A stretch of DNA of 26,746 bases from a virus. The notes under the pieces are model-generated. The model was not told where the DNA came from. It worked only from the letters and a program-made list of their open reading frames with translations, and made no database searches. Where the stretch lies: IMG/VR virus record IMGVR_UViG_3300018080_000524, positions 1 to 26,746 of that record. One strand, given 5' to 3'. Of the stretch, positions 15-23,640 are shown one piece after another. The translations under genes were made by a program, and so were the position numbers. How positions within the stretch are numbered: the first letter of the stretch is position 1; each line of letters begins with the position of its first letter.

Positions 15-308
15 ATGATGAAAGCAAAAAAAGTAGAAGTGGAAATAGTAGAAGGCGAGGGGCTAGTAGCTTTGCTAGGGAAACGGGTATTGCTGATGTG
101 CGCTAATTATTTTTATGAGGGAATTTTAGAGGGAGTAAATGGCGAATGTGTTGCCTTGGGCGACCCCGGCATAGTTTACGAAACCGGACCGTGGTCTTCG
201 GATAAATGGCGAGACCGCCAAGCGCTAGGTATCTCAACTCATTATATTATGAAAAATGCGATTGAATCTTTCGGTGCTTTCGAAAAATCGCCAAAAGGTC
301 AATCCTGA
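15..308 (+). CDS. Small hypothetical phage protein (97 aa)
   Basis: I do not recognise the family. The start is well supported: AGGAGG at 1-6 lies 8 bases before the ATG at 15. The protein has a charged Lys/Glu N-terminus (residues 1-16), a hydrophobic core around residues 16-40, and a C-terminal segment HYIMKNAIESFG near residues 76-87. That segment reappears, with mostly synonymous base changes, in the same reading frame at about 475-510 (HYVMKRAIESFG), so the gene has a diverged paralogue immediately downstream. The phrase ETGP also occurs upstream of the shared segment in both copies. It is the first of a run of small early genes before the primase-helicase and probably has an accessory early role. 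Function unknown. Confidence 0.75.
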   Translation: MMKAKKVEVEIVEGEGLVALLGKRVLLMCANYFYEGILEGVNGECVALGDPGIVYETGPWSSDKWRDRQALGISTHYIMKNAIESFGAFEKSPKGQS

Positions 309-530
309 TGTTCACCTGTCGGGTAGGCGCCTGGAGCGGTAGCCGAAGCTTGGGCGGAAGCCAGACCTGGACCTGGAGCAGAAGCGGCAGCTGGAGCCCG
401 GTCCGGGCCTGGAGCGGATGTGGAAACCGGCGCTGGAGCCCGGGGTGGGCCTGGAGCGGATGTGGAAACCGGTCCACACTATGTTATGAAGCGCGCTATT
501 GAGTCGTTTGGCGAGGTAGATAAGCGATGA
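309..530 (+). pseudogene. Low-complexity G/A/P-rich reading frame ending in a paralogue of the first gene's C-terminus
   Basis: In the frame of the first gene, a TAG at 324-326 is followed by an open frame from 327 to the TGA at 528-530. It encodes about 50 residues of Gly/Ala/Pro/Glu-rich sequence, then GPHYVMKRAIESFG and EVDKR. The tail matches the C-terminus of the upstream protein with synonymous third-base differences, so that frame was once, or still is, translated. No ATG or convincing ribosome site opens it; only internal GTG codons (for example at 420 and 462) are available. A second frame, 308-502, starts with an ATG that shares a base with the upstream TGA and gives a Trp/Ser/Gly/Arg-rich 64-residue peptide. 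Either the paralogue's 5' half was replaced by repeat DNA, or the 308 frame is the gene. I favour a broken paralogue. Confidence 0.45.
390..472 (+). repeat. Tandem 42-bp repeat, two units, in frame
   Basis: Unit 1 is 390-430 and unit 2 is 432-472. They differ at only three positions, and a 26-base core is identical (405-430 and 447-472). The period is 42 bases, or 14 codons, so gain or loss of a unit keeps the reading frame. In the paralogue frame each unit reads AGAR(S/G)GPGADVETG. The surrounding DNA also carries a looser GGAGCN periodicity, with at least ten GGAGC occurrences between 327 and 640. Confidence 0.85.
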
Positions 531-745
531 TATTTAATAAACGTGGACGTAGCAATAGTGGACGCCGGAGTTGGAGCAAGAGTGGGAGCGGGACTTGGTT
601 CAAGAGCTGGGTCAGGAGCTGGAGCGGCAACACTGGCCAGAACGGGAGTTTTTGGAGAGTGGGCTGGGGCCAAAGCCATACCGGTAGCTGTAGCTGCTGC
701 CGGATTGGGAACAGGACTCGAAGCTCGGGCGGGGATTGGGAATAG
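527..745 (+). CDS. Low-complexity Ser/Gly/Trp/Arg-rich small protein (reading frame uncertain)
   Basis: The ATG at 527 overlaps the TGA at 528-530 and has GAGG at 513-516 ten bases upstream. The stop at 743-745 sits just before the AGGAGG of the next gene (748-753), so start and stop signals fit an operon gene. The 72-residue product is basic and rich in Ser, Gly, Trp and Arg, with SWSKSGSGTW-like repeats and no recognised domain. A competing frame (GTG at 543, running to 809) reads a Gly/Ala/Val-rich protein in which Ala and Gly codons vary mainly at their third base. That frame is the one that holds the paralogue tail upstream, but it lacks a ribosome site and overlaps the next gene by 46 bases. 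The choice of frame is unresolved. Base composition is clearly richer in G and C than the neighbouring genes. Confidence 0.35.
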   Translation: MIFNKRGRSNSGRRSWSKSGSGTWFKSWVRSWSGNTGQNGSFWRVGWGQSHTGSCSCCRIGNRTRSSGGDWE

Positions 746-763
746 ACAGGAGGATTATAAAAA

Positions 764-1446: not shown

Positions 1447-3831
1447 ATGAGGATGTCAAACAAGCAAATACTCCGCTGGTACCGCAAGCATAATATGGAG
1501 TTGTTGCCGGTTCGCCCGAAAGACAAACGGCCCCGCGACTCCGGCTGGCGCACGAATCAGTATACAGACGGACATCTACTCGGCTGGATGGTGACCGGCG
1601 GAAATCTGGGCTATCGCATCGGGCCTGACGAGGTTGTTATCGATGTAGATCCCAGAAATTACCGAGACGGAGATTCGCTTGAAAAATTACACAAGGACTT
1701 AGATCTGCCGAAATTCGAGACGATCGGAGTTACGACGGGGGGTGGAGGATTACACTATTACTTTAAATTACCCAACATCGAACGATATAAAAACGAATTG
1801 TCGGATAAATATCCCGGCATTGAGATAAAGGCGCACGGAAAATATGTAGTAGCCGCCGGGTCAACGCATCCCGAAACCGGGCGTCCGTATCAGCTATTCG
1901 AAAATATCGAAAATCTCAAACATGCCGAAATCCCCGAACAAATCCGCCAAACCTACCGCTCAGAAATCGGGGGACCGTCGTCCGAGCGTCAGATTATTGA
2001 CACCGCGCAGTTATCCGAGCTGCTCAAACAGTTAGATGTATACAATTATGACACCAACGACTCGTGGTTTCGCATCATGGCCGCGAGCCATGGAGCGACC
2101 GAAGGGGCCGGGATTGAGGAATTTGTAGAATGGTCGATTGGCGATTCGCAGTACGCGAATAGCGAAGATGAGATCCGAGCGCGCTGGAGGTCCCTGGGGT
2201 CGTCTGGCAAAATCAATTTATTGGGGCTCGGAGCCTTGTTGCGCGAAATCCAAAAAGCCGGCGGAAATATTGACGATTTCCAGCGGGAACAAACTGCAAC
2301 CGCGTTTGCGGAAAGTATACCGGAGGAGGTACCTTCGGCCAACGGATTTGACGCCCTTATGGATGAGATCCAGGGGGCGTCCGAGATGAAACCGCACCTC
2401 GTTATGGCGCTGGCAAAAAAGATTTCCACATACTCCGACCCCGCCGCGCGAGAGGCGCTGTTGCTCGAACTAAAACGGCGTAGCAAGTTCTCGCTTTCGA
2501 TGTTGCGAAAGGCTGCCCGGCCACCGACCGAAGACCTGGCGGATATGGCCGCAACGAAATTGCTTAACGATCGATTCTTCGGTGGCGAGCATCTCATCCG
2601 CGCAATCGATGGAAATTATTGGACTTATACCGGCAAGCACTGGCGGCTGTGGAATGTGGATCTGCTCAAAAAAGAGATAGACACGCATCTGATCGAATCG
2701 GCCCTGTGCTCTAACTCCAACCTCACGCACGCTTCCGCTCTGGACCAGATAGAAAAAATCTTACGGGCACGAACGGCCAGAGACGCCGATCTGTTTTCGC
2801 CTCCGCCGGTCAACGGACACACTCTAATTAACTGTTCCAACGGCACTGTATATTTAGACAATAGTACTGGAGCCGTAGACCTGCGGCCTCACGATCCACG
2901 AGATTATGTGCTCTCAATGTTAACTACCGACTATGACCCCAAAGCCGAGTGTCCTATGTTTGACAAGGCCCTCAAGGAGCTAATGTCTCCACTGCCTGAT
3001 GGCGAGCAAGTCATCGAGTTGATTTGGGAATTGTACGGATATACAATCCAGTGCAAAAAAGATCTGCCGCTGTTTTGTTTATTCCAGGGCGAGGGCGAGA
3101 ACGGTAAAACTTTCGTGCTGGAAGTGCTGACCCGGCTGCTGGGCGAGTCATCGCTGAATGATAGTATCGGTCAGTATGATACTTCGAAAAATCGGTTTGC
3201 TTTCGACGCGTTGGTCGGCAAGCTGGCGTTAATAGATGATGACGTAAATAAGGACACGATTCTGCCTGACGGATTTCTAAAGACGATCACCGAGAATAAG
3301 CGATTGACCGCCGAGCCGAAGGGCGGAAAAAAATTCGGATTTGTCAGCCAAGCTACGGTTTTTTTGGCGAGCAACCATTGGCCGAAAACTCGAGATCTGT
3401 CAAAGGGGATGCGGCGCCGCATGTGCGTAATTCCATTTCGTTTTGACCTAACGCAACATGGTATTGACCCCCAGCTCAAATATCGCATTTTCGATCAAGA
3501 GCTTAGCGGGGTGTTGCGTAAGGCGATCGAGGCATTTCAGCGCATGCGGCGCCGCGGCAGATTTCTGACGCCCCCCAGTTGTTTGGCAGCCACTCGCGAA
3601 TGGGAAGTCAAGGCAAATCCGGCATCGTTGTTTATGGAGGAGCTTTACAAGACCGCCGACTCGTCGGTATCTGTCGAAAATTTATGGGCCACCTATCAAG
3701 CGTGGTGTCTCGATGTCGGCGCCCGTCGCACATACACCCGACCCGGATTGGTCGCCGCGGTGAAAGAGATGGGTTACAAGCTGGACGGAAAACAGGTACA
3801 AAACCTACAAAGGAGGACGGACGATGGATGA
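1447..3831 (+). CDS. Primase-polymerase / SF3 (D5-type) helicase fusion
   Basis: This is a bifunctional replication initiator, expected to make primers and unwind the fork. Residues about 1-160 are an archaeo-eukaryotic-type primase-polymerase: DVD (D66, D68), the GGGLHYYF segment (H103) and AAGSTHPETG (H141). Residues about 180-270 resemble a PriCT_2 linker. Residues about 370-520 fit a D5_N region, and 530-680 is an SF3 ATPase with Walker A GEGENGKT (548-555), Walker B LIDDD (D597-D599), sensor FLASNHWP and an Arg-rich RRRM finger. About 795 residues is normal for such fusions. No strong ribosome site is visible; ATG 1447 and ATG 1453 are both possible, and a TTG at 1435 is less likely. It is the main replication gene of the operon and overlaps a small gene at its 3' end. 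Confidence 0.93.
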   Translation: MRMSNKQILRWYRKHNMELLPVRPKDKRPRDSGWRTNQYTDGHLLGWMVTGGNLGYRIGPDEVVIDVDPRNYRDGDSLEKLHKDLDLPKFETIGVTTGGGGLHYYFKLPNIERYKNELSDKYPGIEIKAHGKYVVAAGSTHPETGRPYQLFENIENLKHAEIPEQIRQTYRSEIGGPSSERQIIDTAQLSELLKQLDVYNYDTNDSWFRIMAASHGATEGAGIEEFVEWSIGDSQYANSEDEIRARWRSLGSSGKINLLGLGALLREIQKAGGNIDDFQREQTATAFAESIPEEVPSANGFDALMDEIQGASEMKPHLVMALAKKISTYSDPAAREALLLELKRRSKFSLSMLRKAARPPTEDLADMAATKLLNDRFFGGEHLIRAIDGNYWTYTGKHWRLWNVDLLKKEIDTHLIESALCSNSNLTHASALDQIEKILRARTARDADLFSPPPVNGHTLINCSNGTVYLDNSTGAVDLRPHDPRDYVLSMLTTDYDPKAECPMFDKALKELMSPLPDGEQVIELIWELYGYTIQCKKDLPLFCLFQGEGENGKTFVLEVLTRLLGESSLNDSIGQYDTSKNRFAFDALVGKLALIDDDVNKDTILPDGFLKTITENKRLTAEPKGGKKFGFVSQATVFLASNHWPKTRDLSKGMRRRMCVIPFRFDLTQHGIDPQLKYRIFDQELSGVLRKAIEAFQRMRRRGRFLTPPSCLAATREWEVKANPASLFMEELYKTADSSVSVENLWATYQAWCLDVGARRTYTRPGLVAAVKEMGYKLDGKQVQNLQRRTDDG

Positions 3832-3997
3832 GGATGCTAGAGTTGCAATGTGTATAACATTAAATGAGGCGCTAGCGCTTTTGTATCAATGTCACGACGC
3901 GCATCCGCAATCACTTCGATTGTCGAAAGCGATTGTAAAATTGATCGATGTCAAAAAATCACTAGACACCATCTACAAGGAGGACAAAAATGACTGA
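3824..3997 (+). CDS. Small hypothetical helical protein (57 aa)
   Basis: AGGAGG at 3811-3816 lies seven bases before the ATG at 3824, a very good start signal. The frame runs 57 codons to the TGA at 3995-3997, overlapping the primase-helicase by 8 bases and the next gene by 8 bases. The product begins MDEDARVAMCITLNEALALL and looks mainly helical, with no recognised motif. The tight overlaps and strong ribosome site indicate a real gene coupled to its neighbours; without it there would be a 158-base gap in an otherwise gapless operon. Function unknown. Confidence 0.7.
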   Translation: MDEDARVAMCITLNEALALLYQCHDAHPQSLRLSKAIVKLIDVKKSLDTIYKEDKND

Positions 3998-4358
3998 CAT
4001 CAATCTGCGAGTACCAGAGAGTATTGACGACTTTTTTCGAGCTGCCGCCGAGTTTTTGCGGTCTATCACTCGGGATTCGTCGTCCAATTATACTGTAATT
4101 ACACCAACGCCGGAAGCTCCCGAAAAACTCGAGGCACCCAAGGCGGAGCCGAAAGATATTAAAACGGAAGCATCGTTTGAATTGTCGTTCGATCAAATCC
4201 ACGAAGCGACAAACCGCACATCCATGTTGCCCGGAGTCGAAACCGCCGATATAAAGCATCTCATTTCACGATTTACCGACGGTAAGCTAGCGGATCTGCC
4301 ACATGAGAAATACATGGAATACCTGGAGGGTTTAGATGACCTCGCCAACCAAGCATAG
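3990..4358 (+). CDS. Hypothetical acidic phage protein (122 aa)
   Basis: The ATG at 3990 follows AAGGAGG (about 3977-3983) at good spacing. The N-terminus (residues 1-33) is a helical segment, DDFFRAAAEFLRSI. Residues about 38-62 form a Pro/Glu/Lys-rich linker (PTPEAPEKLEAPKAEPKD), and the C-terminal part (63-122) is a small, probably helical domain. The layout of two small domains joined by a flexible acidic linker would suit an adaptor or DNA-repair accessory protein. The 3' end overlaps the DUF2800 nuclease gene by 23 bases, so the two are probably translated together. I do not recognise the family. Confidence 0.75.
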   Translation: MTDINLRVPESIDDFFRAAAEFLRSITRDSSSNYTVITPTPEAPEKLEAPKAEPKDIKTEASFELSFDQIHEATNRTSMLPGVETADIKHLISRFTDGKLADLPHEKYMEYLEGLDDLANQA

Positions 4359-5459: not shown

Positions 5460-5984
5460 ATGGCTAATATAACCCCCGCGTTTATATGTAGATTCCCGAA
5501 ATTAAACAATCCACTTGAGCGGCCGCCGACCGAATTGAGCAAAAAATACGAGGTTCGCGCCATGTGGCCGGCCGGAGCTGATTTGTCGGTTATCAAAGAG
5601 CAAGTTTTGAATGCGGCCAAAGAGCGCTTCGGTACTCCGTTGCCCAAGGGCTTGCATATGCCTTTTCGCAAAGACAAAGAGGATGTCTTTTTTGGCAACG
5701 AATGGTCTCCGATGCGAAACGAGCGGCGCCCGATGATGCACGCCCGCGATCCCAACAGGGATGCGTCCCCGGATGATTTTTATGACGGGTGTCAAGCCCG
5801 GGCCATGTACGAGGTTTTTGCGTACGACGCTCACGGCGGCCGCGGAGTGCGATTGACGCTTAAGGCGATCCAGTTTATCGCCGACGGCGATCCCCTGGGG
5901 ACAGGATCGATGAGCTTCGAATCCTCGCAGGACGCTTTTGCATCTGAGCCCGCGCCAGAAACAGACGATACTCCCGACTGGTAG
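5460..5984 (+). CDS. DUF2815 family protein, probable ssDNA-binding protein
   Basis: The sequence fits DUF2815, a phage family generally treated as a ssDNA-binding protein partnered with DUF2800. Supporting features are the early segment KYEVRAMWPAGADLS, the central FGNEWSPMRNERRP region, YEVFAYDAHGGRGVRLTLKAIQFIADGDPLG in two parts typical of the family's C-terminal core, and an acidic tail ending DDTPDW. An acidic C-terminal tip is common in single-strand binding proteins that recruit partners. GAGGAGG at 5443-5449 precedes the ATG at 5460. The 174-residue length is normal. It is cotranscribed between the nuclease and the polymerase; its expected role is to coat unwound template. Confidence 0.85.
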   Translation: MANITPAFICRFPKLNNPLERPPTELSKKYEVRAMWPAGADLSVIKEQVLNAAKERFGTPLPKGLHMPFRKDKEDVFFGNEWSPMRNERRPMMHARDPNRDASPDDFYDGCQARAMYEVFAYDAHGGRGVRLTLKAIQFIADGDPLGTGSMSFESSQDAFASEPAPETDDTPDW

Positions 5985-5993
5985 GAGAGAGAT

Positions 5994-6179
5994 ATGTTAC
6001 CGACACCATGTCAAGATTGTGATTATTGGGATCATAAAAATCAAACGTGCGGCGATTGTGAGAAGTTATGTGATTATCGGATTGAAACTCAGCTAATTCC
6101 GGAATTTGAAGAATCCGAGCTGGAAATTTTTTCATTTGATCCACTTTTTGACCTTGACATCGGTGGAGATAATGATTAG
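5994..6179 (+). CDS. Very small Cys-cluster protein, putative zinc-binding (61 aa)
   Basis: AGGAGAG (5984-5990) lies shortly before the ATG at 5994. The first 28 residues hold six cysteines in CQDCDYW, CGDC and LCDY, resembling the N-terminal cluster of the protein at 764-1270. The rest is strongly acidic (EFEESELEIF, DLDIGGDND). A short zinc knuckle with an acidic tail suggests a protein-interaction or DNA-mimic-like role, which is inference only. It ends 25 bases before a strong hairpin and 87 bases before the polymerase start. Confidence 0.7.
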   Translation: MLPTPCQDCDYWDHKNQTCGDCEKLCDYRIETQLIPEFEESELEIFSFDPLFDLDIGGDND

Positions 6180-6204
6180 ATTAAAAGTATCCTTTTTTGT
6201 CCTC

Positions 6205-6258
6205 GTCCCGGGGCGTCTTGACGCGTCCCTGTCCTCCCGCCGAATGGCGCTCCGGGAC
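6205..6258 (+). promoter_or_regulatory. Strong hairpin upstream of the DNA polymerase gene
   Basis: Bases 6205-6217 pair with 6246-6258 over 13 positions, with two G.U pairs and no mismatch, leaving a 28-base loop. The loop contains the palindrome GACGCGTC (6220-6227) and a CCTCCC stretch resembling the 16S anti-Shine-Dalgarno sequence. Only ATTTTCTA separates the stem from the polymerase ATG, and no purine-rich ribosome site is present. It could be a partial terminator, an RNA-processing site, or a structure controlling polymerase translation. Confidence 0.55.
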
Positions 6259-6266
6259 ATTTTCTA

Positions 6267-8240
6267 ATGCTAATCTCTGGCAACGATATTGTGATCGATT
6301 TCGAGACGCGGTCCGCTGCCGATCTGGCGGCAATCGGAGCCTGGAATTATTCCAAACATCCGACCACAGATTTGTTATGTGTATCCTGGACTGTGGGATT
6401 TTCCGAACCGCGGCTGTGGGTGCCCGGAGATCCGGTGCCGAGAGAGATTGTCAAAAACATAAACGATTACAGCGCATTTATGTGGGCACACAACTCCGCT
6501 TTCGAGCGATACATTTGGCAACACATCCTATGTCCTAAGTACCGCTGGCCCATTCCGACTACCAAAAGCTGGCGATGTTCGGCGGCGCTTGCGGCCCGAT
6601 GGGGCTTACCTCGCAAATTGGAGACCGCGTGTCAAGCCGCCGGCGTAGACCAGCAAAAAGACACCGACGGCCACAAGGTCATGATGAAACTCAGTCGCCC
6701 GCGCAGTCGCAAAGGCGTGACGCCGATCGTATGGTGGCAAGACGAAAAGTTGTATGAAAAATTGTATGATTACTGCAAACAAGACGTCGAGGCGGAGCGA
6801 GCCCTGATTGCAGCGTTGCCAGAATGGGACTCCCGAGAAATCGGCGCCTGGCAATGGACCGAGAAATTAAACGATTACGGAGTACATAGCGACAAAGCGC
6901 TGGTCAATGGGGCAATACAGATTTTCAACAGCCTGGCGACTTCGGCGGGCGATGAAATCCGCGGATTAACTGGAGGCGCAGTTGATTCTCCGCGCCAGGT
7001 GGCGAAAATTATAACATGGTTGAAATCCGAATTTGATTTCGATCTGCCAAATCTACAACTTCCGACGATTGCCGCGGCGCTTAAAACTGATTTGGATCCA
7101 ACAATTCGGCGCATTTTGCAACTTCGTCGGGAATTCAGTCGGTCCAGCGTGTCGAAATATTACCGTTTGGCTGACACCGCAGATGCAGAGGATTCTCGCA
7201 TTCGCGGACACGTGTTTTATTACGGGGCCCATACCGGGCGATGGTCTGGCCGCGGAATCCAAACTCAGAATTTTAAGTCGAAAAAATGGGAAGACGCCGA
7301 GCTAGAGGCCGCGACGAATACCGTATTGCGGGGGGACGCAGAATACTATTCGATGGTTTATGGTAATGACACCTCATGTTTATCTGGGTTGCTGCGCCCC
7401 GCACTATGTGCCGCACCCGGAAATATACTAGAAGTGATCGATTATTCGTCAATCGAGGCCCGGGTTCTGTTTTGGCTGGCCAACGCCCCGGAAACCGAGC
7501 TGTTTAAAAACCGAGACATTTATTGTGAGATGGCCGAAAAAATTTACGGCTATGCCGTAGCGAAAGAAACACATCCCGACGAGCGGGACATGGGGAAGCG
7601 CGCCATCCTGGGTTTGGGGTACGGCATGGGGGCTGCCAAATTCTTGGACACCTGTAGCCAATTTGGGGCGAAAGTAACCGGCAATTTTGCCGAAAGTGTG
7701 GTGCAGACGTATCGTAAATGGCTGACGTCCGTGCCGAAATTATGGAGCGACCTAGAGAGGCACATGGTTTCGGCGGTTAACGGGTCCATTACAATTCTTC
7801 GCAATAAGTTCGAATTTCGTAAGATCGACGCAGATGTGTATCTGCAACTACCAAGTGGGCGCCGATTGCGCTATAACGGATTGCACATACGAGACCGTGA
7901 AACCCCCTGGGGCGAGGTGCGCCCACAACTACACTATTACACAGAGCGCGCCCCAACATACAAATGGGCACTGGATTCCACCTACGGCGGAAAACTTGCG
8001 GAAAATGTGGCCTCGGCGACAGCTCGCGATATTATGCTTGATGCCGCGCTTCGGATTGAAAAAGAGCTGCCGAACCATCGCACCGTTTTAACTGTGCATG
8101 ACGAGCTGGTTTTCGAGGTGCCGGAAGGTGAGGCCGACTTGCAGGCCATTTGTGACATAATGAGCACTCCGCCAAAATGGGCCAGGGGGCTCCCGCTCGC
8201 CGTAGACGGGTGGGTTGGAAAAAGGTATAACAAAAAATGA
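6267..8240 (+). CDS. Family A DNA polymerase with 3'-5' proofreading domain
   Basis: Replicative polymerase of the phage. The exonuclease domain (about residues 1-190) keeps DFETRS (D11, E13), AHNSAFE (about 74-80) and YDYCKQD (D173). The polymerase domain has the primer-grip segment TGRWSGRGIQTQN (about 323-335), motif A DYSSIEAR (D392), motif B with GKRAILGLGYG (K444, Y452) and motif C HDE (611-613). All catalytic residues are present, so both activities should be intact. 657 residues is normal for this phage type, which lacks a 5'-3' exonuclease. The ATG at 6267 has no clear ribosome site, and a hairpin lies directly upstream. The gene overlaps VRR-NUC by 4 bases (ATGA). Confidence 0.96.
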   Translation: MLISGNDIVIDFETRSAADLAAIGAWNYSKHPTTDLLCVSWTVGFSEPRLWVPGDPVPREIVKNINDYSAFMWAHNSAFERYIWQHILCPKYRWPIPTTKSWRCSAALAARWGLPRKLETACQAAGVDQQKDTDGHKVMMKLSRPRSRKGVTPIVWWQDEKLYEKLYDYCKQDVEAERALIAALPEWDSREIGAWQWTEKLNDYGVHSDKALVNGAIQIFNSLATSAGDEIRGLTGGAVDSPRQVAKIITWLKSEFDFDLPNLQLPTIAAALKTDLDPTIRRILQLRREFSRSSVSKYYRLADTADAEDSRIRGHVFYYGAHTGRWSGRGIQTQNFKSKKWEDAELEAATNTVLRGDAEYYSMVYGNDTSCLSGLLRPALCAAPGNILEVIDYSSIEARVLFWLANAPETELFKNRDIYCEMAEKIYGYAVAKETHPDERDMGKRAILGLGYGMGAAKFLDTCSQFGAKVTGNFAESVVQTYRKWLTSVPKLWSDLERHMVSAVNGSITILRNKFEFRKIDADVYLQLPSGRRLRYNGLHIRDRETPWGEVRPQLHYYTERAPTYKWALDSTYGGKLAENVASATARDIMLDAALRIEKELPNHRTVLTVHDELVFEVPEGEADLQAICDIMSTPPKWARGLPLAVDGWVGKRYNKK

Positions 8241-8536
8241 GAGAATCAACGATCGAAAAATACATATGCTCAAAGCTTGAAGAGATGGGAATTATGAGCA
8301 TTAAGTTCCGCGGTTCCGGTAGAGGAGCGCCAGACCGAATAAATCTATGCAAAGGCGGGAAAACGTTTTTTATCGAATTCAAGCGCCCCGGCGAAAAGAT
8401 CCGCCGACCGGAACAAATCCAATGGCGCGTCCTGCTCGAGCACTCCGGATTCGAGGTTTTCGAAGTCTCCTCCAAAGACTGGATCGAAAAAACTTATAAA
8501 AAAATACAGCAGACCTATTGCGCCCCCGCCAAGTAA
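8237..8536 (+). CDS. VRR-NUC domain nuclease
   Basis: A compact PD-(D/E)XK-type nuclease. Motifs seen: E7 in the first helix, GAPDR with D33, the catalytic FIEFKR (E47-x-K49) and RPEQ (Q60), followed by a helical C-terminus. At 99 residues it is a stand-alone VRR-NUC as found in many phages, where it usually sits next to an SNF2-type helicase; here that helicase lies 2.5 kb further on. The start overlaps the polymerase stop (ATGA), implying translational coupling. Expected role: structure-specific DNA cleavage during replication or recombination. The exact substrate is unknown. Confidence 0.92.
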   Translation: MRESTIEKYICSKLEEMGIMSIKFRGSGRGAPDRINLCKGGKTFFIEFKRPGEKIRRPEQIQWRVLLEHSGFEVFEVSSKDWIEKTYKKIQQTYCAPAK

Positions 8537-8569
8537 GACTTACATTTATAAGCAGAAGGGGGATACAAA

Positions 8570-8758
8570 ATGATGATTTCGACGACAACAAAAATAACCG
8601 ACTTGGGTATCGACGAATTGATCGAAGACGCGAAATTGACGCTTAACACACGTCCAGATTGGATCGTGCCCGGCAGTGACCGGCCGCTCAATCCCGATGA
8701 ATTTGATCAAGAGTTTTATTCTACGGCAGAGTGGATGCTATCTGTAGCCCCGCTCTAA
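8570..8758 (+). CDS. Small hypothetical protein (62 aa)
   Basis: A purine-rich site (AGAAGGGGGA, about 8554-8563) precedes the ATG at 8570, after a 33-base gap from the previous gene that holds nothing else recognisable. The product is acidic with a helix near ITDLGIDELIEDAKLTL and a Pro-rich middle (VPGSDRPLNPDEFD). No motif is recognised. Its stop lies shortly before the AGGAGG of the exonuclease fusion gene, so it is part of the same operon. Function unknown. Confidence 0.65.
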   Translation: MMISTTTKITDLGIDELIEDAKLTLNTRPDWIVPGSDRPLNPDEFDQEFYSTAEWMLSVAPL

Positions 8759-8762
8759 TAAC

Positions 8763-8768
8763 AGGAGG
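8763..8768 (+). promoter_or_regulatory. Ribosome binding site that fixes a TTG start at 8776
   Basis: AGGAGG stands seven bases before TTG at 8776. The in-frame ATG at 8731 lies upstream of this site, within the previous gene, and has no ribosome site of its own. Confidence 0.75.
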
Positions 8769-8775
8769 ACAAATC

Positions 8776-9714
8776 TTGCAGAATTGGTCACCAGAAGAAG
8801 ACGGCATTATATCGGGTTTTGAGCCGGGCGCAAGAACAAGCGCAATTTCCGCGGCCTTACTACTCGCGGGATACCGAAGATCGGTCGCCGCAATCCACAA
8901 TAGGCGGGCCAGAATCAAAACGGCATCGCAATTTCAAGTTGTCACAAAAGCACCGAAGGCGCCCACCGTTCGGGCACGTAAACCGAAAATTCTCTACTTT
9001 GACCTAGAAACCACGGATCTAAGCGCCGGATTCGGAGATATCTTAATGATCGGGTATCGTTGGGGGCACGAAAAAAAGTACAAGCTCAAGGGCATCTGGG
9101 ATTTTCCAAAATGGGAGAAGCCAAGCATCGACAAACGTGACAAGCCTCTGGTGATGTGGATTTCAGAATTATTGCTCGAAGCAGACGTGCTTGTGGGGCA
9201 CTACTCCAAGAGATTTGATTTTAAATTTGTAAACACGCGCCGACTCATACACGACTTACCACCATTGCCCCCGATCCCACATATTGACACTTGGGAGATT
9301 GCGCGGAAAAACCTTAGGGTGGGCAGTAGCCGGCTGAAAAATCTCGCGAAATCTCTCGAGCTGCCGGAGCAAAAATCTGAGGTAACACGTATGACGTGGC
9401 GCCGGGCCAAAGCCCACGATCTGAAATCGATGAAACTCATCGGAGAATACTGCCGCCAGGATGTGCGGACTACTTACGAGTTAGCGCAAAAGATACTTCC
9501 GTATTGTCGAGATTTACCAAATTGGAATTTGATGACCGGGGAGAAAACGTACAGATGCGCCAATCCTGAATGTGGATCGATCCATGTGGTGGAAGACGGC
9601 GCTTGGCTAACCAAAGTCCATAGATACGCGCGATATCGGTGTCAAGATTGCGGTCATTGGTCGCGCGGACGAAAAACTGTAGTTGGAAAAGACGTAGAAA
9701 GGCACATGTATTAA
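8776..9714 (+). CDS. HTH - DnaQ/RNase H-like exonuclease - zinc ribbon fusion
   Basis: TTG at 8776 is the likely start because AGGAGG (8763-8768) is perfectly placed; this gives 312 residues. Domains in order: residues about 3-47 look like a SANT/Myb-type helix-turn-helix (WSPEEDG, then HNRRARI); residues about 70-245 are a 3'-5' exonuclease/RNase H-like fold of the YprB/DnaQ type with DLE (D76, E78), GHYSKRFD (D148) and YCRQD (D229); residues 260-300 form a zinc ribbon with C261/C266 and C289/C292. The acidic exonuclease residues are all present. DNA-binding modules at both ends suggest a targeted nuclease acting on replication intermediates or host DNA. It lies in the block between VRR-NUC and the SNF2 helicase. 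The domain calls are solid, the cellular role is inferred. Confidence 0.85.
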   Translation: MQNWSPEEDGIISGFEPGARTSAISAALLLAGYRRSVAAIHNRRARIKTASQFQVVTKAPKAPTVRARKPKILYFDLETTDLSAGFGDILMIGYRWGHEKKYKLKGIWDFPKWEKPSIDKRDKPLVMWISELLLEADVLVGHYSKRFDFKFVNTRRLIHDLPPLPPIPHIDTWEIARKNLRVGSSRLKNLAKSLELPEQKSEVTRMTWRRAKAHDLKSMKLIGEYCRQDVRTTYELAQKILPYCRDLPNWNLMTGEKTYRCANPECGSIHVVEDGAWLTKVHRYARYRCQDCGHWSRGRKTVVGKDVERHMY

Positions 9715-12447: not shown

Positions 12448-12826
12448 TTAATGCCGTTGCCGCCGCCGCCAAAGCCCCGATGGCCCCCAATAAAAACTTA
12501 AATTGTGCCGGAGTCATGAGTGTTTTTAGCTCGTGATCGCAAGCGGCAACGTGGTTCGAGATTATATGATCAGCCTGATCTTTCGTCACCATTTTCGCTT
12601 TAATTTCGGCGACGTCAATCTGAGTATCTCGCATCGAATCGGACATTGTATCCAATCGTCGATGTACCTGCATCATAGCGTTGTGCACATGATCTCGAGT
12701 TTCTTGGGCCGTGTCGGCTGCGGTTACAGCGGCCTGGTTGATCATGGAGTATAGCTCAAAAACTTCATTTTTTTCTCGCCGCGTCAAAATCTCCCCCGCA
12801 TCTTCCGTCGTATTAGTATTCTGCAC
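12434..12826 (-). CDS. Coiled-coil protein with C-terminal membrane helix, holin/XhlA-like candidate
   Basis: The start is a GTG at 12826, inside the end of the propeller gene (14-base overlap), with only a weak GGGG site before it. Residues about 15-95 are long helices with heptad character (VHRRLDTMSDSMRDTQIDVAEIKAKM). Residues about 108-130 are a single hydrophobic helix, LGAIGALAAAATALI. A helical cytoplasmic part with one C-terminal membrane helix is the arrangement of XhlA-like holin-associated proteins, and the last position in a tail operon fits a lysis gene. No endolysin is seen in the window. Function is inferred, not demonstrated. The other possibility is a structural anchor. Confidence 0.7.
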   Translation of the reverse strand: MQNTNTTEDAGEILTRREKNEVFELYSMINQAAVTAADTAQETRDHVHNAMMQVHRRLDTMSDSMRDTQIDVAEIKAKMVTKDQADHIISNHVAACDHELKTLMTPAQFKFLLGAIGALAAAATALIKVL

Positions 12827-13982
12827 CGATCGACCCCGATCTTGCCAAAACTTCTTCTGTGCCCACAGCCATCACCGTAGTTCCGTCGCACCACATATTG
12901 TAAATTAATACGTTGTTGGTTATTCCGGAATTGTCGTATGTCATACTAACCGGATACCAATTCGCCGCATCGTCAATCGAAATCCAAAGACTTAAACAAC
13001 GACTCGTCCTGGCGACCGGGATCAGCGGCCCACTGGCTTCGGCGGCGATCCAACATTTATTTCCCAGGGGTAACACTCTAAGAAACGCTGAGGAAGTCGT
13101 CGGATAGAAAGGTTCGTAGTTCGCGGCCGTCCAGGTAGTGCTTTCGTCTGTGCTGTATGCAATCCTCGGTGTAGCTCCGGTAAAGCCCACTGCTACCAGA
13201 GTGCCGTCATCGTATCCTAGTGCGATTGTCTGAAATCCCGCAATAACGCTTGCCGGATCGGCCGGCGCCGCGGTCCAGTTATCTCCGTCGTCTGAGCTTA
13301 AATGTATGCTTCCGGAGGCCGCGGCTTCTGCCAGTGCCCAGTTTGTGGTCGAATCGCCGCGTCCCGTTATGTCGGCAATGGCTGTTCCGCCCCAAGACGT
13401 AGAGCTGGGAGCCGTTGCACCTCCGCCGATTCCGGTCAACCAGCGGCTTAGAGTGCTGCCGGTTGACGACAAAAAGAAATCATTAACGCCTTTATTTGCT
13501 AATACTGCTGCCGCGGTTCCGGTGCTTGACCACGCCGAAGCGCTTTGTGTGTATTCGATCGTGGTGGCTGTGCCGACTAATACGCCGTCTGTGGTGTTAT
13601 TGATCATTCGGCAAAACGTGACCGGCGCTACACTTGTGGACCCAACGGTCTCCCACGACACGCCATCATAACTTCGGTACGATTGGCCGGTGCTGTCTAC
13701 AATAATCCAGTATCCATTGGTGTCGTTACGGACAATCCCCCGTAAATCGACGCCGCTACCCGCAACTTGATCTGTCAACCCCGTCCAGGTTCCGGCGGCT
13801 GTTGCAACAGCCCTTTGTGCCCACCGCCCCTGGATGTTGTGGATGTAGTTCATCATTCTCGGCGCCGGCCGCTGAGAATAATCATGACCAAAAGATGCCG
13901 TTATTCCCGCCGAGGCGGGTGTCTGGGTTCTGTTGGCCTGGGTGGCCCACGTAAAATATTCAGGTAAATCCAAAATTGGCAT
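12813..13982 (-). CDS. Tail fibre / receptor-binding protein with Asp-box propeller repeats
   Basis: The 389-residue protein follows the gp48-like baseplate gene, the usual place for a tail fibre. Residues 1-60 are an N-terminal adaptor (FTWATQANRTQTPASAG). The rest has repeated Asp-box (BNR) signatures: SYDGVSW (104-110), SSDDGDNW (229-236, a full match), STDESTTW (277-284) and SIDDAANW (335-342), the last two lacking the usual Gly. Asp boxes mark beta-propeller blades like those in sialidases, but no sialidase catalytic set is evident, so binding rather than cleavage is likely. GAAGGGG precedes the ATG at 13982. Expected role: receptor recognition at the baseplate. Confidence 0.8.
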   Translation of the reverse strand: MPILDLPEYFTWATQANRTQTPASAGITASFGHDYSQRPAPRMMNYIHNIQGRWAQRAVATAAGTWTGLTDQVAGSGVDLRGIVRNDTNGYWIIVDSTGQSYRSYDGVSWETVGSTSVAPVTFCRMINNTTDGVLVGTATTIEYTQSASAWSSTGTAAAVLANKGVNDFFLSSTGSTLSRWLTGIGGGATAPSSTSWGGTAIADITGRGDSTTNWALAEAAASGSIHLSSDDGDNWTAAPADPASVIAGFQTIALGYDDGTLVAVGFTGATPRIAYSTDESTTWTAANYEPFYPTTSSAFLRVLPLGNKCWIAAEASGPLIPVARTSRCLSLWISIDDAANWYPVSMTYDNSGITNNVLIYNMWCDGTTVMAVGTEEVLARSGSIGAEY

Positions 13983-13994
13983 TAAAAACCCCTT

Positions 13995-15092
13995 CTATCC
14001 GTCCAGCAGATACACCGACGTTGCATCGTCGAGTAATAGTGCGTCTGTTGCATCGTCTTTTAACACATATGGTCCCGGAGCATCGTACCAAAATCCGCCG
14101 GTAGTTTGATCTTCGTTGGCGAAACCCATGGTTGTGCTCGTCCCCACGGTATCATTTTCCGACCAGGTAAACCATCGATCGTCGTCGTGTATTACTCCGA
14201 TGCCCCAAGCGTGCACTGGTTTGTATTTCATAACAAGCTCGCGGAAAGTAAGACGTAGGGCATCGGATACTATATACGGAGCAACATGTACTAGTTTTCC
14301 GCTGTTGTCATAAACCGCCTCTTCCCCGAGCACGAAAACGTATGGCCAAAGAGCTTGTTCTTTGACCGTCTCTAGTATGGTACGATCATAAAGCTCATTA
14401 TTCGTGATCATCTCGCCGCCGTGGCCGCCGAAGAAATTTCCGGGACTTGAGGCGAGGTTGTTGGGATGTACTTGCACCAGATCGAATCCGGCATTCCGCA
14501 GCTGATCTTGCATGTACTCATGAGTGCCGGTGCTCGGAGGTGCATAAACAACACCGTGCAGTTTTTCTCTCCGTTCGGTTTCTGAGAGCCCGGCATTATT
14601 GAGTAACCCGTATTCTTTCTCCAAATCGGACAAATATGGGGTAAGCAAGGGCTCCCGTAGGTATGCGAGTTCTTTAAGAAAATCTCGAATCTCTTGATGA
14701 TTATCTCCCATCCCGAGGATGAGATTCATTAGATCACTGGTATTGCGACTTTTATTTATAGTTGTCGGCCCAAAATGATTGGCGGGAAAAGTGCCGTGGA
14801 TTGTAACCCGCGCTGTCAACCCGGCTTCTTCATAACTTTCAACCGCATATACTCCGTCAATTACATTCCCGACGGAATTGCTGATTGTCATTGTGTCGCC
14901 AGCAAAAAACGGGCCGGCTGAAATCGGGCCGCCGCCCGTAAGCAATATGGCTAGATTGCCGCCCGATGTTGTGGTACAAATCACCGAGGTGGACGTGCCA
15001 TAATCGGCTACTTCCGCTTCGCTTGGCCGCCACGCAGCGCCGCGCGGAAGTAGCGATAAAATCGTCGCCGCAAAATCTAGATAACTAGACAT
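13995..15092 (-). CDS. Mu gp48-like / YmfQ-type (DUF2313) baseplate protein
   Basis: Family signatures: LLPRGAAWRP at residues about 14-23, an ERREKLHGVVYAPPSTGTHEY segment in the middle (about 181-202) and the C-terminal MKYKPVHAWGIGVI. It directly follows the J-like gene and overlaps it by 8 bases, exactly as in Mu-type tails, where this protein links the baseplate to fibres. At 365 residues it is longer than the usual roughly 200. Extra length lies in an early insertion (about residues 35-105, a beta-rich stretch GPISAGPFFAGDTMTISNS) and in a C-terminal extension containing two DDAT repeats (DDATDALLLDDATSVYLL). These additions may hold the fibre. Confidence 0.85.
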   Translation of the reverse strand: MSSYLDFAATILSLLPRGAAWRPSEAEVADYGTSTSVICTTTSGGNLAILLTGGGPISAGPFFAGDTMTISNSVGNVIDGVYAVESYEEAGLTARVTIHGTFPANHFGPTTINKSRNTSDLMNLILGMGDNHQEIRDFLKELAYLREPLLTPYLSDLEKEYGLLNNAGLSETERREKLHGVVYAPPSTGTHEYMQDQLRNAGFDLVQVHPNNLASSPGNFFGGHGGEMITNNELYDRTILETVKEQALWPYVFVLGEEAVYDNSGKLVHVAPYIVSDALRLTFRELVMKYKPVHAWGIGVIHDDDRWFTWSENDTVGTSTTMGFANEDQTTGGFWYDAPGPYVLKDDATDALLLDDATSVYLLDG

Positions 15093-16656
15093 ATGTTATG
15101 GTTCCCAGCTTGGCCAGTTCGTTTTCGTCCACTGTATATCGAGTAACGGGAGAACCTCCCGTCAATTCGAACGTAATGTCGTCCACGGTGGCCCCGTATG
15201 CAGCAAGTATGTCTTGGATTACTTGCGACAATTTGACGCTCGTTATGACATCGTTTCGATCAATTTCAGCGTCAATCCCCGTCACGAACGGTACGACAGA
15301 GCGAAAATACTCATCCACGCCCGTATCCAGGCTGGCCTTCAACGCTGTTTCTTGCGATGCCTCGACCACTAGGCCATCAATTTCCACATCGAATTCCGAA
15401 CGAATAATCGGCTCAACAAAAAGCTTTTCGTCTGTTGTGCCGAGTGGCATTCGAGCTACCCCGGTATCCGGATCCGTGTTTAGGTCGGTTCGAACATCGT
15501 CCAGAATGGCTTCCGTCGGAATTCCGTCCGCATCAATCGCGGTAGTCACTTCTACATAAACTGTGCGATCACCGGGAAGCGAATCAGTAACTCCTAATTC
15601 CAGCGCATCAAATTGTGCATATCCCGCCGCGCTAGCAGTGCTACCAAACCACAATTGATTGCTTTGAGCCGTAAATGCTATTGGACCCCAAAGCTGCCAG
15701 CCAGTCGTAGTGCTCCCCGTCCATAGTGTCGCTAGACCCCCATCGCTTACTGTCGGAGCATACGTTCCGTCTCCGGTTGCATATCCGCCAATGGTGTAAT
15801 CTCGTCCGATTTCCAGGGATATTTGATATGCGTATGGGCTGGCTGTGCCGTTATAGGCCACACGGAGATGTTGCACCCCGCTGGGATGGAATCCTGTCGT
15901 TTCGTATGTCAATGTAGCGTCATTTCCGGCGGTCCAATACGAAAGTGACTCTTCCATATCCGGATCTTGTATTTTGTGGCTTGGCGACACCGGGGCTCCG
16001 GAAAAGGGGAAAACCCGAAATACCCCGGTGACCGCCTCACCCCAGGTTCTGTAATCTACGGCATTTCCGCCTCCGCCGACCGTGCGGATCTCTTGTAATA
16101 TCCGGCGACGATATTCTGCGTCACTTTCACGATCCACGCCTGTTGTAATTGTGGCGTCATACGTTGCGGTTGTGCTGGTGATGCCGGCGATTTGCGTGCC
16201 GATGGTTAGCGTATCGCTTGCTGACAGATTACCGTTTGCTCCGGGCTCTGTCGCAGTGACTTCGACAACAGCAACACCGCCGGCCGCGACTGCCGCAGCA
16301 TTTACAATATATCGTATCCCGCTAGCATCGGCCACATAATCCACTGTGATTGGAATCGTTGTCCCATTAACCGCCGGCTGATCGATGGTCCCCACAAAAG
16401 CAATCGCGGCTTTCCGCGTCACTCCATAATTAGACCCAATCCTATCCAGGTCGTCGCCGGTCGCGGTGAGCGCCAGGGTTTGCAAAATGCGGTCTGATGC
16501 AAATTTGTAGTGAGAGGTAAACAGGCCGGCTTCGATCGCCGCCAAAACACGCACGAACGCTTTGGCATTGAGCGGGATTGTTTGGCCGATCCGAACCTCG
16601 AAATTTGCAATATTTTGAGCGGCAATTTCCGCGGTGGTTGGTATACTAATTGCCAT
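15085..16656 (-). CDS. Baseplate J-like (Mu gp47-like) protein with an inserted jelly-roll-like domain
   Basis: Baseplate wedge protein. The family core is seen at residues about 1-220 (ATGDDLDRIGSNYGVTRKAA, TEPGANGNLS, DRESDAEYRRRIL, GGGNAVDYRTWGEAV) and 358-523 (TVYVEVTTAIDADGIPTEAIL and onward). Between them, residues about 223-357 do not belong to the usual family. This segment has the features of a CBM4_9-type carbohydrate-binding jelly-roll: DPDMEESLSYWTAG near its start, a GVQHLRVA strand, EIGRDYTIGGYA, and AQFDALEL at its end. The insertion falls in the surface loop before the GTV-like strand. It starts inside the gp46-like gene (11-base overlap) and ends in gp48-like. Sugar binding is inferred from pattern only. 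Confidence 0.9.
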   Translation of the reverse strand: MAISIPTTAEIAAQNIANFEVRIGQTIPLNAKAFVRVLAAIEAGLFTSHYKFASDRILQTLALTATGDDLDRIGSNYGVTRKAAIAFVGTIDQPAVNGTTIPITVDYVADASGIRYIVNAAAVAAGGVAVVEVTATEPGANGNLSASDTLTIGTQIAGITSTTATYDATITTGVDRESDAEYRRRILQEIRTVGGGGNAVDYRTWGEAVTGVFRVFPFSGAPVSPSHKIQDPDMEESLSYWTAGNDATLTYETTGFHPSGVQHLRVAYNGTASPYAYQISLEIGRDYTIGGYATGDGTYAPTVSDGGLATLWTGSTTTGWQLWGPIAFTAQSNQLWFGSTASAAGYAQFDALELGVTDSLPGDRTVYVEVTTAIDADGIPTEAILDDVRTDLNTDPDTGVARMPLGTTDEKLFVEPIIRSEFDVEIDGLVVEASQETALKASLDTGVDEYFRSVVPFVTGIDAEIDRNDVITSVKLSQVIQDILAAYGATVDDITFELTGGSPVTRYTVDENELAKLGTITYV

Positions 16657-17110
16657 CGGTTATCCTTTTGTATGCTGGATTTTCTTTCTGTGCGACCCAG
16701 TTCGCACCGTTTTTCTCGGCCAAAAGTACTGTCAAATCCCGGCCGGGAGGTTCGATCAGGCCCGCCACTTCGATCCGATCCGACGCCGGATTGCGCGCCA
16801 GGGCGACCACTTTAGACGCCAACTTAGTTTCAAGCATCCATTTTAGAGCCCGCTGCGCCGCGTTTTGAATTTGTTGCAGTGCGCTAATGGTAATGGCCTG
16901 GCGACACGAGGTTTCAAAATCCGAGCCAACCTGTTGATTGGGGTCCTGAAAAAGGTCGTTGCCCCACCACCCACGTTGGGTAAACCACGAGATAAACGCG
17001 GCATTTTCAAGGCCTTGGTCCATGACCGGTTGACCGCCTTGAAATTCGATATTGGACCCGTCCTCTGTTATAATAATTTTCGGGTCGCCTTGAGTATAAT
17101 CAAACGCCAT
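16646..17110 (-). CDS. Mu gp46-like baseplate protein
   Basis: This fits the phage GP46 family (baseplate wedge initiator). Signs are the early DPKIIITEDG, then LENAAFISWFTQRGWWGND typical of the family, a helical middle (QIQNAAQRALKWMLETKLA) and a final AYKRITDG. 154 residues is the usual length. It starts at the stop of the preceding gene (TAATG) and overlaps the J-like gene by 11 bases. With the gp45-, gp47- and gp48-like neighbours it completes a Mu-order baseplate cluster. Confidence 0.9.
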   Translation of the reverse strand: MAFDYTQGDPKIIITEDGSNIEFQGGQPVMDQGLENAAFISWFTQRGWWGNDLFQDPNQQVGSDFETSCRQAITISALQQIQNAAQRALKWMLETKLASKVVALARNPASDRIEVAGLIEPPGRDLTVLLAEKNGANWVAQKENPAYKRITDGN

Positions 17111-17538
17111 TATTGGGCCTTTGCTTTCGTTTGGCCCGCATCAGAAATTTCAATAGAGCAGGCACAGGCAATCGGAGTATTTGGGGGCGCCGTTAAATTC
17201 CAAACACCAATACACCCAGCAACAGCAGTGTCTGTTTTCCGTAACACCAATTGGCCTTCGGCCTTAACTTTCGTGGCGCCGGGAAGGATAGTCGCCGCCC
17301 CGGATACAAAGGTATAAGTTGCGGAGGTATGTGGGCAATCTTGACCGCCGACGGCCCAAACAAAAATCAAATCTTTCGTGCACACGCCTTTTCCGGCCGC
17401 CTTACATTTCGTAGACACCGTTGCTGTACATGCCGGATCGGTTATACCTACGTCTCCCGTATATACCAAGTCCGGAGGTCCGGCAGAATTGGTAAGTTTG
17501 ACCGCAAGGTCTTCGTTGGCCACATCTTCTAAACTCAT
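17110..17538 (-). CDS. Cys-rich baseplate protein, probable PAAR-like spike tip
   Basis: The 142-residue protein lies between the gp45-like spike gene and the gp46-like gene, overlapping the spike by 4 bases. It has seven cysteines (C37, C45, C53, C68, C109, C125, C127) and H70. Its second half, with AATILPGATKVKAEGQLVLR and SIEISDAGQTKAKA, resembles PAAR-type proteins, where a GATKVKAxG strand and a metal-bound point form the sharp tip of the spike. Metal binding and tip function are inferred from Cys content, strand pattern and position. Alternatively it is a small baseplate protein of unknown fold. Confidence 0.65.
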   Translation of the reverse strand: MSLEDVANEDLAVKLTNSAGPPDLVYTGDVGITDPACTATVSTKCKAAGKGVCTKDLIFVWAVGGQDCPHTSATYTFVSGAATILPGATKVKAEGQLVLRKTDTAVAGCIGVWNLTAPPNTPIACACSIEISDAGQTKAKAQ

Positions 17539-17897
17539 AAATCCACCGTAAAATTACCGTTAATGTCCACTTGGCCTGTCGTATACAGCGTAATCACCGC
17601 TTGCTTCGCCCCGCCCGAGTCGAACGAATATAGAATTTTCTCCCCATCTGACGCGGACGGAGTCACTTCGTCATCCATCGCCACCGCAACTTTGTACGCC
17701 GGCGCCAAGGTAAGCACTATAACTCGGGCGCCAACTTGTGGCGCGGAATCATCGCCCGGGGCTCGAAACTGCTCAATCGACTGCACGTCTTCAGAGTTCG
17801 TCATCTCCACCTGTAGCATACGGACAGTATCATCGCCGTCACGATTCGTCGTTAGCTCGCTACCTACGACGGTCCCAATGTCAATTCCTAAAGCCAC
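17535..17897 (-). CDS. Mu gp45-like baseplate spike protein
   Basis: A short protein (120 residues) whose C-terminal half, GEKILYSFDSGGAKQAVITLYTTGQVDING in two strands, is the OB-fold/beta-helix transition of gp45-like spikes. The N-terminal half has VQSIEQFRAPGDDSAPQVGARVIVL, also typical of the OB fold. It would trimerise below the hub and pierce the outer membrane. It is shorter than Mu gp45 (about 200), so the beta-helical needle must be brief and is probably finished by the Cys-rich protein encoded next. It overlaps the hub gene by 10 bases. Confidence 0.85.
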   Translation of the reverse strand: MALGIDIGTVVGSELTTNRDGDDTVRMLQVEMTNSEDVQSIEQFRAPGDDSAPQVGARVIVLTLAPAYKVAVAMDDEVTPSASDGEKILYSFDSGGAKQAVITLYTTGQVDINGNFTVDL

Positions 17898-19180
17898 GGT
17901 TCGTCGATCTCCCCTCCAGTGTACACCTCTGGCGGAACTAGCGTCAAAATCGCGGTTGTTCCGTTCGCATCGAAAATATATTCGACAGACTTAATTAAAA
18001 AATCAAATCCGTTCGGCACAAAAATTGTTGGTGATTTGACCGTAACCAGTGTATTTTCGCGCCATAAGTCCCCATCGGCGGTATACCAACTCGAAACCGG
18101 GAATGGGATCGTCAAAGACTCGGCTACCTGCTTAGACCGCCGCCATTCCGCGACCGATTGGATATTTCCGGCCGTCGCATCGTGTGCGCGGAAAGTCTGA
18201 AATCTGGATTTCGGCACCGTCTCATCCTTGGCAACTGCCTCTAACATATTTGTGCCGCCCTTTTTCCTCATCTTTTTCGGTGTCGGACAGATGGCGCGAT
18301 ACGAATTAAACCGCTTTCGCCCGTCGAAGCTGGCCTCGAGAGATTGATACGGTGGAAACTCCTCCTCTAACACGCCCGCCGGGGGGGCAGTCGTGGTCTG
18401 ATAAAAAATCACCTCGCCCTTAATCGTCGAAGAAATTAACACGCTCCGCTGGGTGGCAAGCGTTGCAAGATGTTCGAATATTGTATCTTCCGGCTCTGCT
18501 GTGATTCGGTCGAACGCTTCGCCCTCATCCACCTCAAATACAGTTTTCAGGCCCAGGGGCTTGAGAAGATCTTCGGCCCGTTGCTTAAGCGTGAGCTTAG
18601 CTTTCTCCGGCGGTATATTAGCGGACAAAGTCGAGTCGGCACAATCCGCCGTCAACGAATAGCCCTCCAGCACCAATACATTGCCGTCGGGAGATAATTT
18701 CGGCCGGGGGTTATATATGCGGCCGGTAATAACTAGATATTGTCCGACGTACACTTTTACATCTTGATACCCGTAGGGTTTAACCAGCTCGGTAAAATCG
18801 GCGTCTGTCGGATCCCATAACAGCTCAGCCGTAAAGCCGTCGGTTACAGTATCCATCGTGCGGAGTACTCGTCCGCTCGTGCAAATAACTTCAGTATTGT
18901 TGATGATTACTGTGAAATCCTCCGGGTCTTTCCCGGGCAACAGCTCGTCAGATCCAGGTAACCCCAACTCCTCGAGGACATCAGATTGTAGAGTGTCCGG
19001 AGGAATTTGTAAAATCTCGCCGGGATAAATAAGATTTGGGTCGCCAGACCTCAATGACGACTGATTAGCCTGCCAAATATCCCGCCATTTTTTCGGGTCG
19101 CCATACGCCTGTTTCGCGATACCGGTAAGCGTATCTCCGGATACTACGGTATACGGCGCCCCTGGTATAGCTCTAGGCAT
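17888..19180 (-). CDS. Baseplate hub (Mu gp44 / gpD-like) with N-terminal LysM domain
   Basis: Residues about 9-60 are a LysM domain (YTVVSGDTLTGIAKQAYGDP at its start, NLIYPGEILQIP at its end). The rest resembles the gp44/late-control D hub: ELLWDPTDADFTELVKPYGYQDVKVYVG in pieces, TGRIYNPRPKLSPDGNVLVLEGYS, and a late SWYTADGDLWRENTLVTVKSPTIFVP. The hub forms the central ring that holds the spike and ends the tail tube. In many phages LysM is on a separate XkdP-like protein; here it is fused to the hub, giving 430 residues. It overlaps the preceding circularisation-type gene by 8 bases. LysM may bind peptidoglycan or assist baseplate assembly. Confidence 0.88.
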   Translation of the reverse strand: MPRAIPGAPYTVVSGDTLTGIAKQAYGDPKKWRDIWQANQSSLRSGDPNLIYPGEILQIPPDTLQSDVLEELGLPGSDELLPGKDPEDFTVIINNTEVICTSGRVLRTMDTVTDGFTAELLWDPTDADFTELVKPYGYQDVKVYVGQYLVITGRIYNPRPKLSPDGNVLVLEGYSLTADCADSTLSANIPPEKAKLTLKQRAEDLLKPLGLKTVFEVDEGEAFDRITAEPEDTIFEHLATLATQRSVLISSTIKGEVIFYQTTTAPPAGVLEEEFPPYQSLEASFDGRKRFNSYRAICPTPKKMRKKGGTNMLEAVAKDETVPKSRFQTFRAHDATAGNIQSVAEWRRSKQVAESLTIPFPVSSWYTADGDLWRENTLVTVKSPTIFVPNGFDFLIKSVEYIFDANGTTAILTLVPPEVYTGGEIDEPWL

Positions 19181-23221: not shown

Positions 23222-23254
23222 TGAAAATCCCCTTTATTTCACCGGTCGCGCACC

Positions 23255-23629: not shown

Positions 23630-23640
23630 TGTCTACTCCT

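Follow-up and report, generated by a model that had tools for sequence, protein, structure and literature searches.

A degenerate phage repeat block as a probable copy of a two-gene module encoding a predicted Sm-like protein and a dipeptide-repeat protein

The Sm/LSm proteins (archaeal SmAP, eukaryotic Sm/LSm and Hfq) include some eukaryotic members that bear RG-rich low-complexity tails, which provide a functional parallel for the phage locus described here. The likeness itself lies in the fold predicted for the first of two adjacent genes. In contrast to the Sm/LSm proteins, the product of this gene is acidic and has no sequence-profile match to them, and the low-complexity part is encoded by a separate gene of [Trp/Arg/Gly]-Ser dipeptides (XS) that overlaps its stop codon. 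Members of the family to which the first gene belongs (YETG) also show weak, sub-threshold or borderline profile matches to other small Sm-like domains, namely the MM0924 family, DUF6897 and RimP (best E 2e-4). Phage Sm-fold proteins have already been named in databases, for example as phage 'Sm-like domain containing protein'.

A similar arrangement is found where DUF6948 (PF22253) is paired with Gly-X repeat genes. Here too a small gene overlaps or nearly touches a gene for dipeptide repeats in which GG recurs at six-base intervals, but the repeat is read in the GGN frame and encodes acidic Gly-[Ser/Tyr/Asp] chains. DUF6948 phage proteins are among the viral fold matches of the Sm-like model discussed below; homology between DUF6948 and YETG is not demonstrable by profile (hhalign probability 1-14), and the first gene of our locus gave no match to PF22253, against which true DUF6948 proteins score 94-107 bits. 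Pairs of DUF6948 with acidic Gly-[Ser/Tyr/Asp] repeats were seen in contigs L118, L217, L218, L229, L231, L246 and others, and DUF6948 adjoins 12 of the 19 Gly-X arrays found. Diversity-generating retroelements and phase-variable VNTR genes share frame-keeping repeat units that vary in number, whereas XS varies in the first base of the codon preceding serine (the X codon) and in copy number.

Neither gene of the module has a clear match in Pfam, NCBIfam or PHROGs. No family, annotation or paper on the XS protein or on the Sm-like and XS pair was found in a literature search limited to open-licence papers, in which the work on phage Sm-like proteins and on phage low-complexity proteins contained nothing on such a system. 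The two-gene module is apparently undescribed. Uncultured phages in numerous metagenome samples carry it; hardly any phage isolates do, and it has therefore escaped study. In this report, we compare the module across its relatives and interpret a degenerate copy of it in a 26,746-nucleotide stretch of viral DNA (IMG/VR record IMGVR_UViG_3300018080_000524, positions 1 to 26,746), referred to as the window.

Architecture of the module in relatives

The first gene of the window (ORF1) has 10 viral relatives in IMG/VR, with 43-69% identity. An AlphaFold model built from the ten relatives (pLDDT 81) had only Sm/LSm proteins as its top PDB matches in Foldseek, and the model of a second upstream family, RTVT (pLDDT 92), has an Sm fold with an archaeal Sm heptamer as its top PDB match. 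The YETG and RTVT families are related by profile (hhalign probability 95), and both are predicted by AlphaFold, with Foldseek comparison to the PDB, to adopt the Sm-type fold, a sharply bent barrel of five beta-strands that in most cases has a helix at its N terminus. No Sm1/Sm2 sequence profile was recognised in gene 1, nor was an LSM or Hfq family returned for it by Pfam or PDB sequence searches; it is therefore called Sm-like by fold only, its product being a small acidic protein for which an Sm/LSm fold is predicted. Sm-like proteins of the module have a median pI of 4.9 and a median charge of -3, and RNA binding by them is putative because of this acidity and the missing Sm/LSm profile match.

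A profile scan starting from the first gene recovered 80 viral loci and one Elusimicrobia MAG contig, 75 of which have enough downstream sequence to be read. In 69 of these 75 matches an XS gene starts between -12 and +40 relative to the Sm-like stop, amounting to 60 distinct downstream proteins; for at least three of the remaining six, XS genes lie a short distance beyond this range. The downstream ORFs have about 30-94 codons and consist of a short leader followed by tens of [Trp/Arg/Gly]-Ser dipeptides. An offset of -3 (ATGA or GTGA) is the commonest geometry (34 of the 60 distinct cases), and relative to gene 1, XS is read in frame +2 in 42 of them, +1 in nine and 0 in nine. Since the frame varies, XS is a gene in its own right, whose start overlaps the end of gene 1 or lies close to it. 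A programmed frameshift producing an Sm-repeat fusion was rejected, given this variation and the presence of a start codon in XS itself.

The same association emerged when viral contigs were scanned for GGTCNN and GGAGCN arrays while their neighbours were ignored. Among the matches listed, mixed Trp/Arg/Gly arrays have an Sm-like gene directly upstream in 65 of 88 cases (32 YETG and 33 RTVT), and monotonous hexamer repeats in only two of 26. The monotonous GGAGCN repeats caught by the pattern scan are unrelated and were set apart from the mixed arrays. Single linkage by Blast joins the upstream genes at 127 of the 128 module loci. At the level of sequence, comparison thus shows that Sm-like and XS genes belong together. 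One such pair had been annotated by its depositors as two overlapping hypothetical proteins (MW202573.1; UOF78857 and UOF78858), the second of which is MNAAIIRAGLDASWSWSWSWSRSRSWSWSGSRSGSRSRSGSGS. XS leaders differ according to the upstream partner, being basic and IRGKKQKW-like beside YETG genes and MNAAxLRxGFDxS-like beside many RTVT genes; this difference is consistent with each leader docking on its own Sm-like partner.

The duplicated copy in the window

The G-rich block at 308-763 is flanked by ORF1 (15-308) on one side and by a new gene from 764 on the other, and none of its ORFs matches a curated family. Most of what the original prediction had described in it was borne out. GGAGC, put at ten copies or more, occurs exactly 10 times, compared with a mean of 1.3 and a maximum of 7 in 2000 mononucleotide shuffles of the block, and with at most two in any other 456-bp stretch of the window sampled. 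The distinct composition is real, with G at 39% in the block and 25% in the window, as are the 42-bp tandem repeat and the ATG codons at 308 and 527 lying on the stops of the first gene and of the tail frame. The peptides of the block are indeed of low complexity and built of frame-keeping units. The tail HYVMKRAIESFG, which had been ascribed to a paralogue, matches the Sm-like family profile with 12-14 bits (best of 1000 shuffles, 2.8), aligning to its C-terminal end; the remnant has 71% DNA identity to ORF1 over 35 bases, and an exact search with its DNA gave no match. The features are collected in Table 1.

Table 1. Features at the start of the window
Feature	Position	Strand	Description and basis
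Sm-like gene (ORF1)	15..308	+	97 aa, YETG family, acidic (pI 5.4); viral relatives, AlphaFold model (predicted fold)
TGATG overlap	306..310	+	Sm-like stop 306-308, XS1 ATG 308-310; sequence; such an overlap is what relatives show most often
XS1	308..502	+	Degenerate Trp/Arg/Gly-Ser repeat gene, 64 aa, pI 10.7; Ser parity, position and frame as in relatives
Two 42-bp direct repeats	390..473	+	390-431 and 432-473; 14 codons, seven XS1 dipeptide units; 38/42 bases identical; TRF
3' remnant of second Sm-like gene	about 477..530	+	HYVMKRAIESFGEVDKR, stop 528-530; read in the array's Gly/Ala frame
ATGA overlap	527..530	+	XS2 ATG and stop of Sm-like remnant; sequence
XS2	527..745	+	Second degenerate XS gene, 72 aa, MIFNKRGRSNSGRRSWSKSGSG..., pI 11.7; basic leader as in relatives
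Shine-Dalgarno-like aggagg	748..753	+	Ahead of next gene (ATG 764); sequence

Both repeat genes begin on a Sm-like stop, in line with the module as defined here, in which XS starts overlap that stop or lie within about 20 bp of it. Serine alternates with Trp, Arg or Gly in XS1, where all 12 serines fall in one parity (12:0; codon-shuffle p = 0.0004). The alternation is weak in XS2, with a parity of 11:4 (p = 0.08 by parity, 0.018 by best segment); this gene also holds a 24-bp TRF array at 551-606. The succession of Sm-like gene, XS1, Sm-like remnant and XS2 corresponds to a module in tandem that has undergone a deletion. Most simply, the entire module would have been duplicated, after which XS1 lost its 3' end and the second Sm-like gene most of its length, an order of events that we infer. 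The oddities of the window are that its module is duplicated, that the second Sm-like gene is without its 5' part and that both repeat genes are worn; it is a poor specimen of the module, and its degenerate XS and Sm-like copies may be losing function.

Two interpretations in the original prediction survive in part. One of the two sense frames thought to carry signals, the Ser/Trp/Arg frame (NGG-Ser), is taken as coding on the evidence given below, and not the Gly/Ala frame. The tail is a remnant of a duplicated first gene, as proposed, but the repeat has not invaded or replaced the paralogue to create new peptides: it is the standard, conserved second gene, which nearly all relatives have downstream of the Sm-like gene, as a rule in a much more regular form than in the window. 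We are close to certain that the block represents a two-gene phage module, duplicated and in part decayed. As the architecture of the module accounts for the block, an assembly error, though conceivable, is not needed to explain it; sequence of this kind, which is readily written off as junk repeats or faulty assembly, can be genic.

Duplicated modules are also present in relatives. Contig L197 (9193-10300) has two complete Sm-like and XS modules in tandem, with near-identical short DNA after each copy (gttaat.gggacggcgtgg); in L294 the stretch ends within the second of its two modules, and in L333 one XS gene directly follows another. Longer tandem batteries of XS genes with conserved leaders were seen in L096 (about 14 genes, about 5480-8960, reverse-strand coordinates), L138 (about nine genes, 1548-4114) and L109 (about six genes, 2485-3824, reverse-strand coordinates), with several 4-base ATGA overlaps between successive XS genes in L096 and L109.

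Selection on the repeat protein and competing explanations

Codon use in the arrays suggests that selection acts on the XS protein itself, a conclusion from sequence comparison that we hold to be highly probable. About 97% of the serine codons within one array are the same codon, and across phages all six are used, from both the TCN and the AGY boxes. In the gene-first set, assembled without recourse to array patterns, 85% of 1498 X codons are NGG; Gly accounts for 563, Trp for 409 and Arg for 371, and Gly is encoded by GGG in 525 of 563 cases. In a set of 108 arrays from sequences of 27-67% GC, partly fetched by patterns that fix GG and compared irrespective of relatedness, the fractions of Trp (about 0.32), Arg (about 0.31) and Gly (about 0.37) show no trend with GC (Trp over GC terciles,.33/.30/.32). 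The ratio of AGG to CGG arginine codons shifts with genome GC, from.245:.064 to.095:.233 over the terciles, and the third base of serine codons tracks GC as well (rho 0.63, p 2e-13). Constant proportions of Trp, Arg and Gly, with synonymous bases that follow GC, are as predicted by selection on the composition of the NGG-Ser frame. Among the 67 array-first matches listed, an open frame with a nearby start is the NGG frame in 47 and the other frames in 10 and six. Coding in the Gly/Ala (GGN) frame was discarded, a nearby start being rare in it (10/67) and its second residue changing between R, L, A, Q/H, P or V with the phage's serine codon.

XS offers a case in which selection on the composition of a phage low-complexity protein can be tested, and its arrays offer a natural experiment in how dipeptide repeats are maintained by slippage and codon choice. 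We found no counterpart to a Trp-Ser/Arg-Ser/Gly-Ser chain of near-constant composition over this GC range whose gene overlaps that of a protein with a predicted Sm fold; the module would parallel, in prokaryotes, the Sm proteins that bear low-complexity tails.

The same regularities could be read as properties of a nucleic acid, with the array regulating the operon as a G-quadruplex or as a site wrapped around a ring, in the manner of TRAP, and the peptide a by-product. The fixed GG of the X codon, the position of the array on the coding strand of the upstream gene and the GG that recurs every six bases, in another frame, in DUF6948-linked arrays are in keeping with this. It accounts poorly, however, for Trp/Arg/Gly fractions that stay flat while synonymous bases shift, for the occurrence of all six serine codons, for the excess of nearby starts in the NGG frame among the matches listed, and for leaders conserved in tandem paralogues. 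Moreover, XS genes of L096 and L138 with many Gln or Glu residues at X lose GG, yet keep serine. G-quadruplexes are predicted in some arrays, but none in those of the window, and were rejected as the main selected feature; regulation by the array as nucleic acid is, overall, quite improbable. The first reading of the block, neutral repeat expansion in a duplicated gene yielding meaningless low-complexity peptides, would suit the degenerate copies and truncated second Sm-like gene of the window. It is very improbable in view of the retention of XS beside the Sm-like gene across diverse phages, with constraint at the protein level.

Other alternatives accept the protein and differ in what it does. 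Trp/Arg-rich cationic peptides are known to disrupt membranes, and XS could be a membrane-active peptide that is neutralised by the acidic Sm-like protein translated ahead of it from the shared message, as in a toxin-antitoxin or lysis-like pair; the opposite charges and overlapping genes would fit. The chain is rich in serine, diluted by glycine and without hydrophobic character beyond Trp, however, and batteries such as that of L096 combine about 14 XS genes with few Sm-like genes, and the genes that recur beside the module serve recombination, not lysis, which makes such a pair rather improbable. A silk-like structure, with serine on one face of a beta-strand, Trp, Arg and Gly on the other, and assembly into sheets, fibres or condensates with the Sm-like ring as scaffold, would explain why the dipeptide alternation is strict even in uneven arrays and why the parallel DUF6948 module alternates too (Gly with Ser/Tyr/Asp). 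Hexamer slippage could also yield alternation, and high positive charge disfavours homotypic sheets; we regard this structure as unlikely.

Possible function and gene neighbourhood

The reading that we prefer, and judge to be somewhat probable as a whole, is a duplicated, partly decayed Sm-like and XS module whose repeat protein has a binding role. XS proteins are basic (median pI 12, median charge +10) and the Sm-like proteins acidic, and the neighbours of the module belong to recombination and replication; for these reasons XS is proposed as a partner of the ring and a binder of single-stranded nucleic acid. The Sm-like protein would form a ring, and XS would be its co-translated basic partner, docking on it through the leader. 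The repeat would then provide multivalent binding to single-stranded nucleic acid during phage recombination or replication, in which Trp could stack, Arg contact phosphate and Ser and Gly act as spacers, giving one side chain per two residues. The strict dipeptide may be kept by slippage and homogenisation of the NGG-Ser hexamer, under selection for roughly equal amounts of Trp, Arg and Gly. This putative nucleic-acid-binding mechanism is tentative. It is conceivable, with similar reserve, that the module represents a widespread, undescribed phage RNP or single-strand nucleic-acid machinery, in which a Sm-like ring and a co-translated dipeptide partner, in batteries of up to about 14 genes, form a multivalent assembly at a site of recombination or replication.

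Recurrent neighbours of the module are ERF, SSB, AAA_24, YqaJ, RecT-like and DUF669 genes. They vary from locus to locus, and ERF, although the commonest recombination neighbour, is present at only 11 of the 128 loci. In searches for the module beyond the viral contigs, a phage collection gave no match at the nucleotide level and one uncultured record per family at the protein level, and plasmids gave none. The only match in a species-genome collection was the Elusimicrobia MAG contig L092 (JAGWUP010000019.1), which hints at a host lineage or at a mis-binned phage. A primase query against viral contigs found no relatives. Beyond the module, the window encodes a Prim-Pol/D5 primase, a DUF2800 nuclease, an Enc34-type ssDNA-binding protein and polymerase A. 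By inspection of ORF translations, genes resembling structural genes of contractile-tail phages were seen at 12813-25188 on the reverse strand, opposite to the early region of the window.
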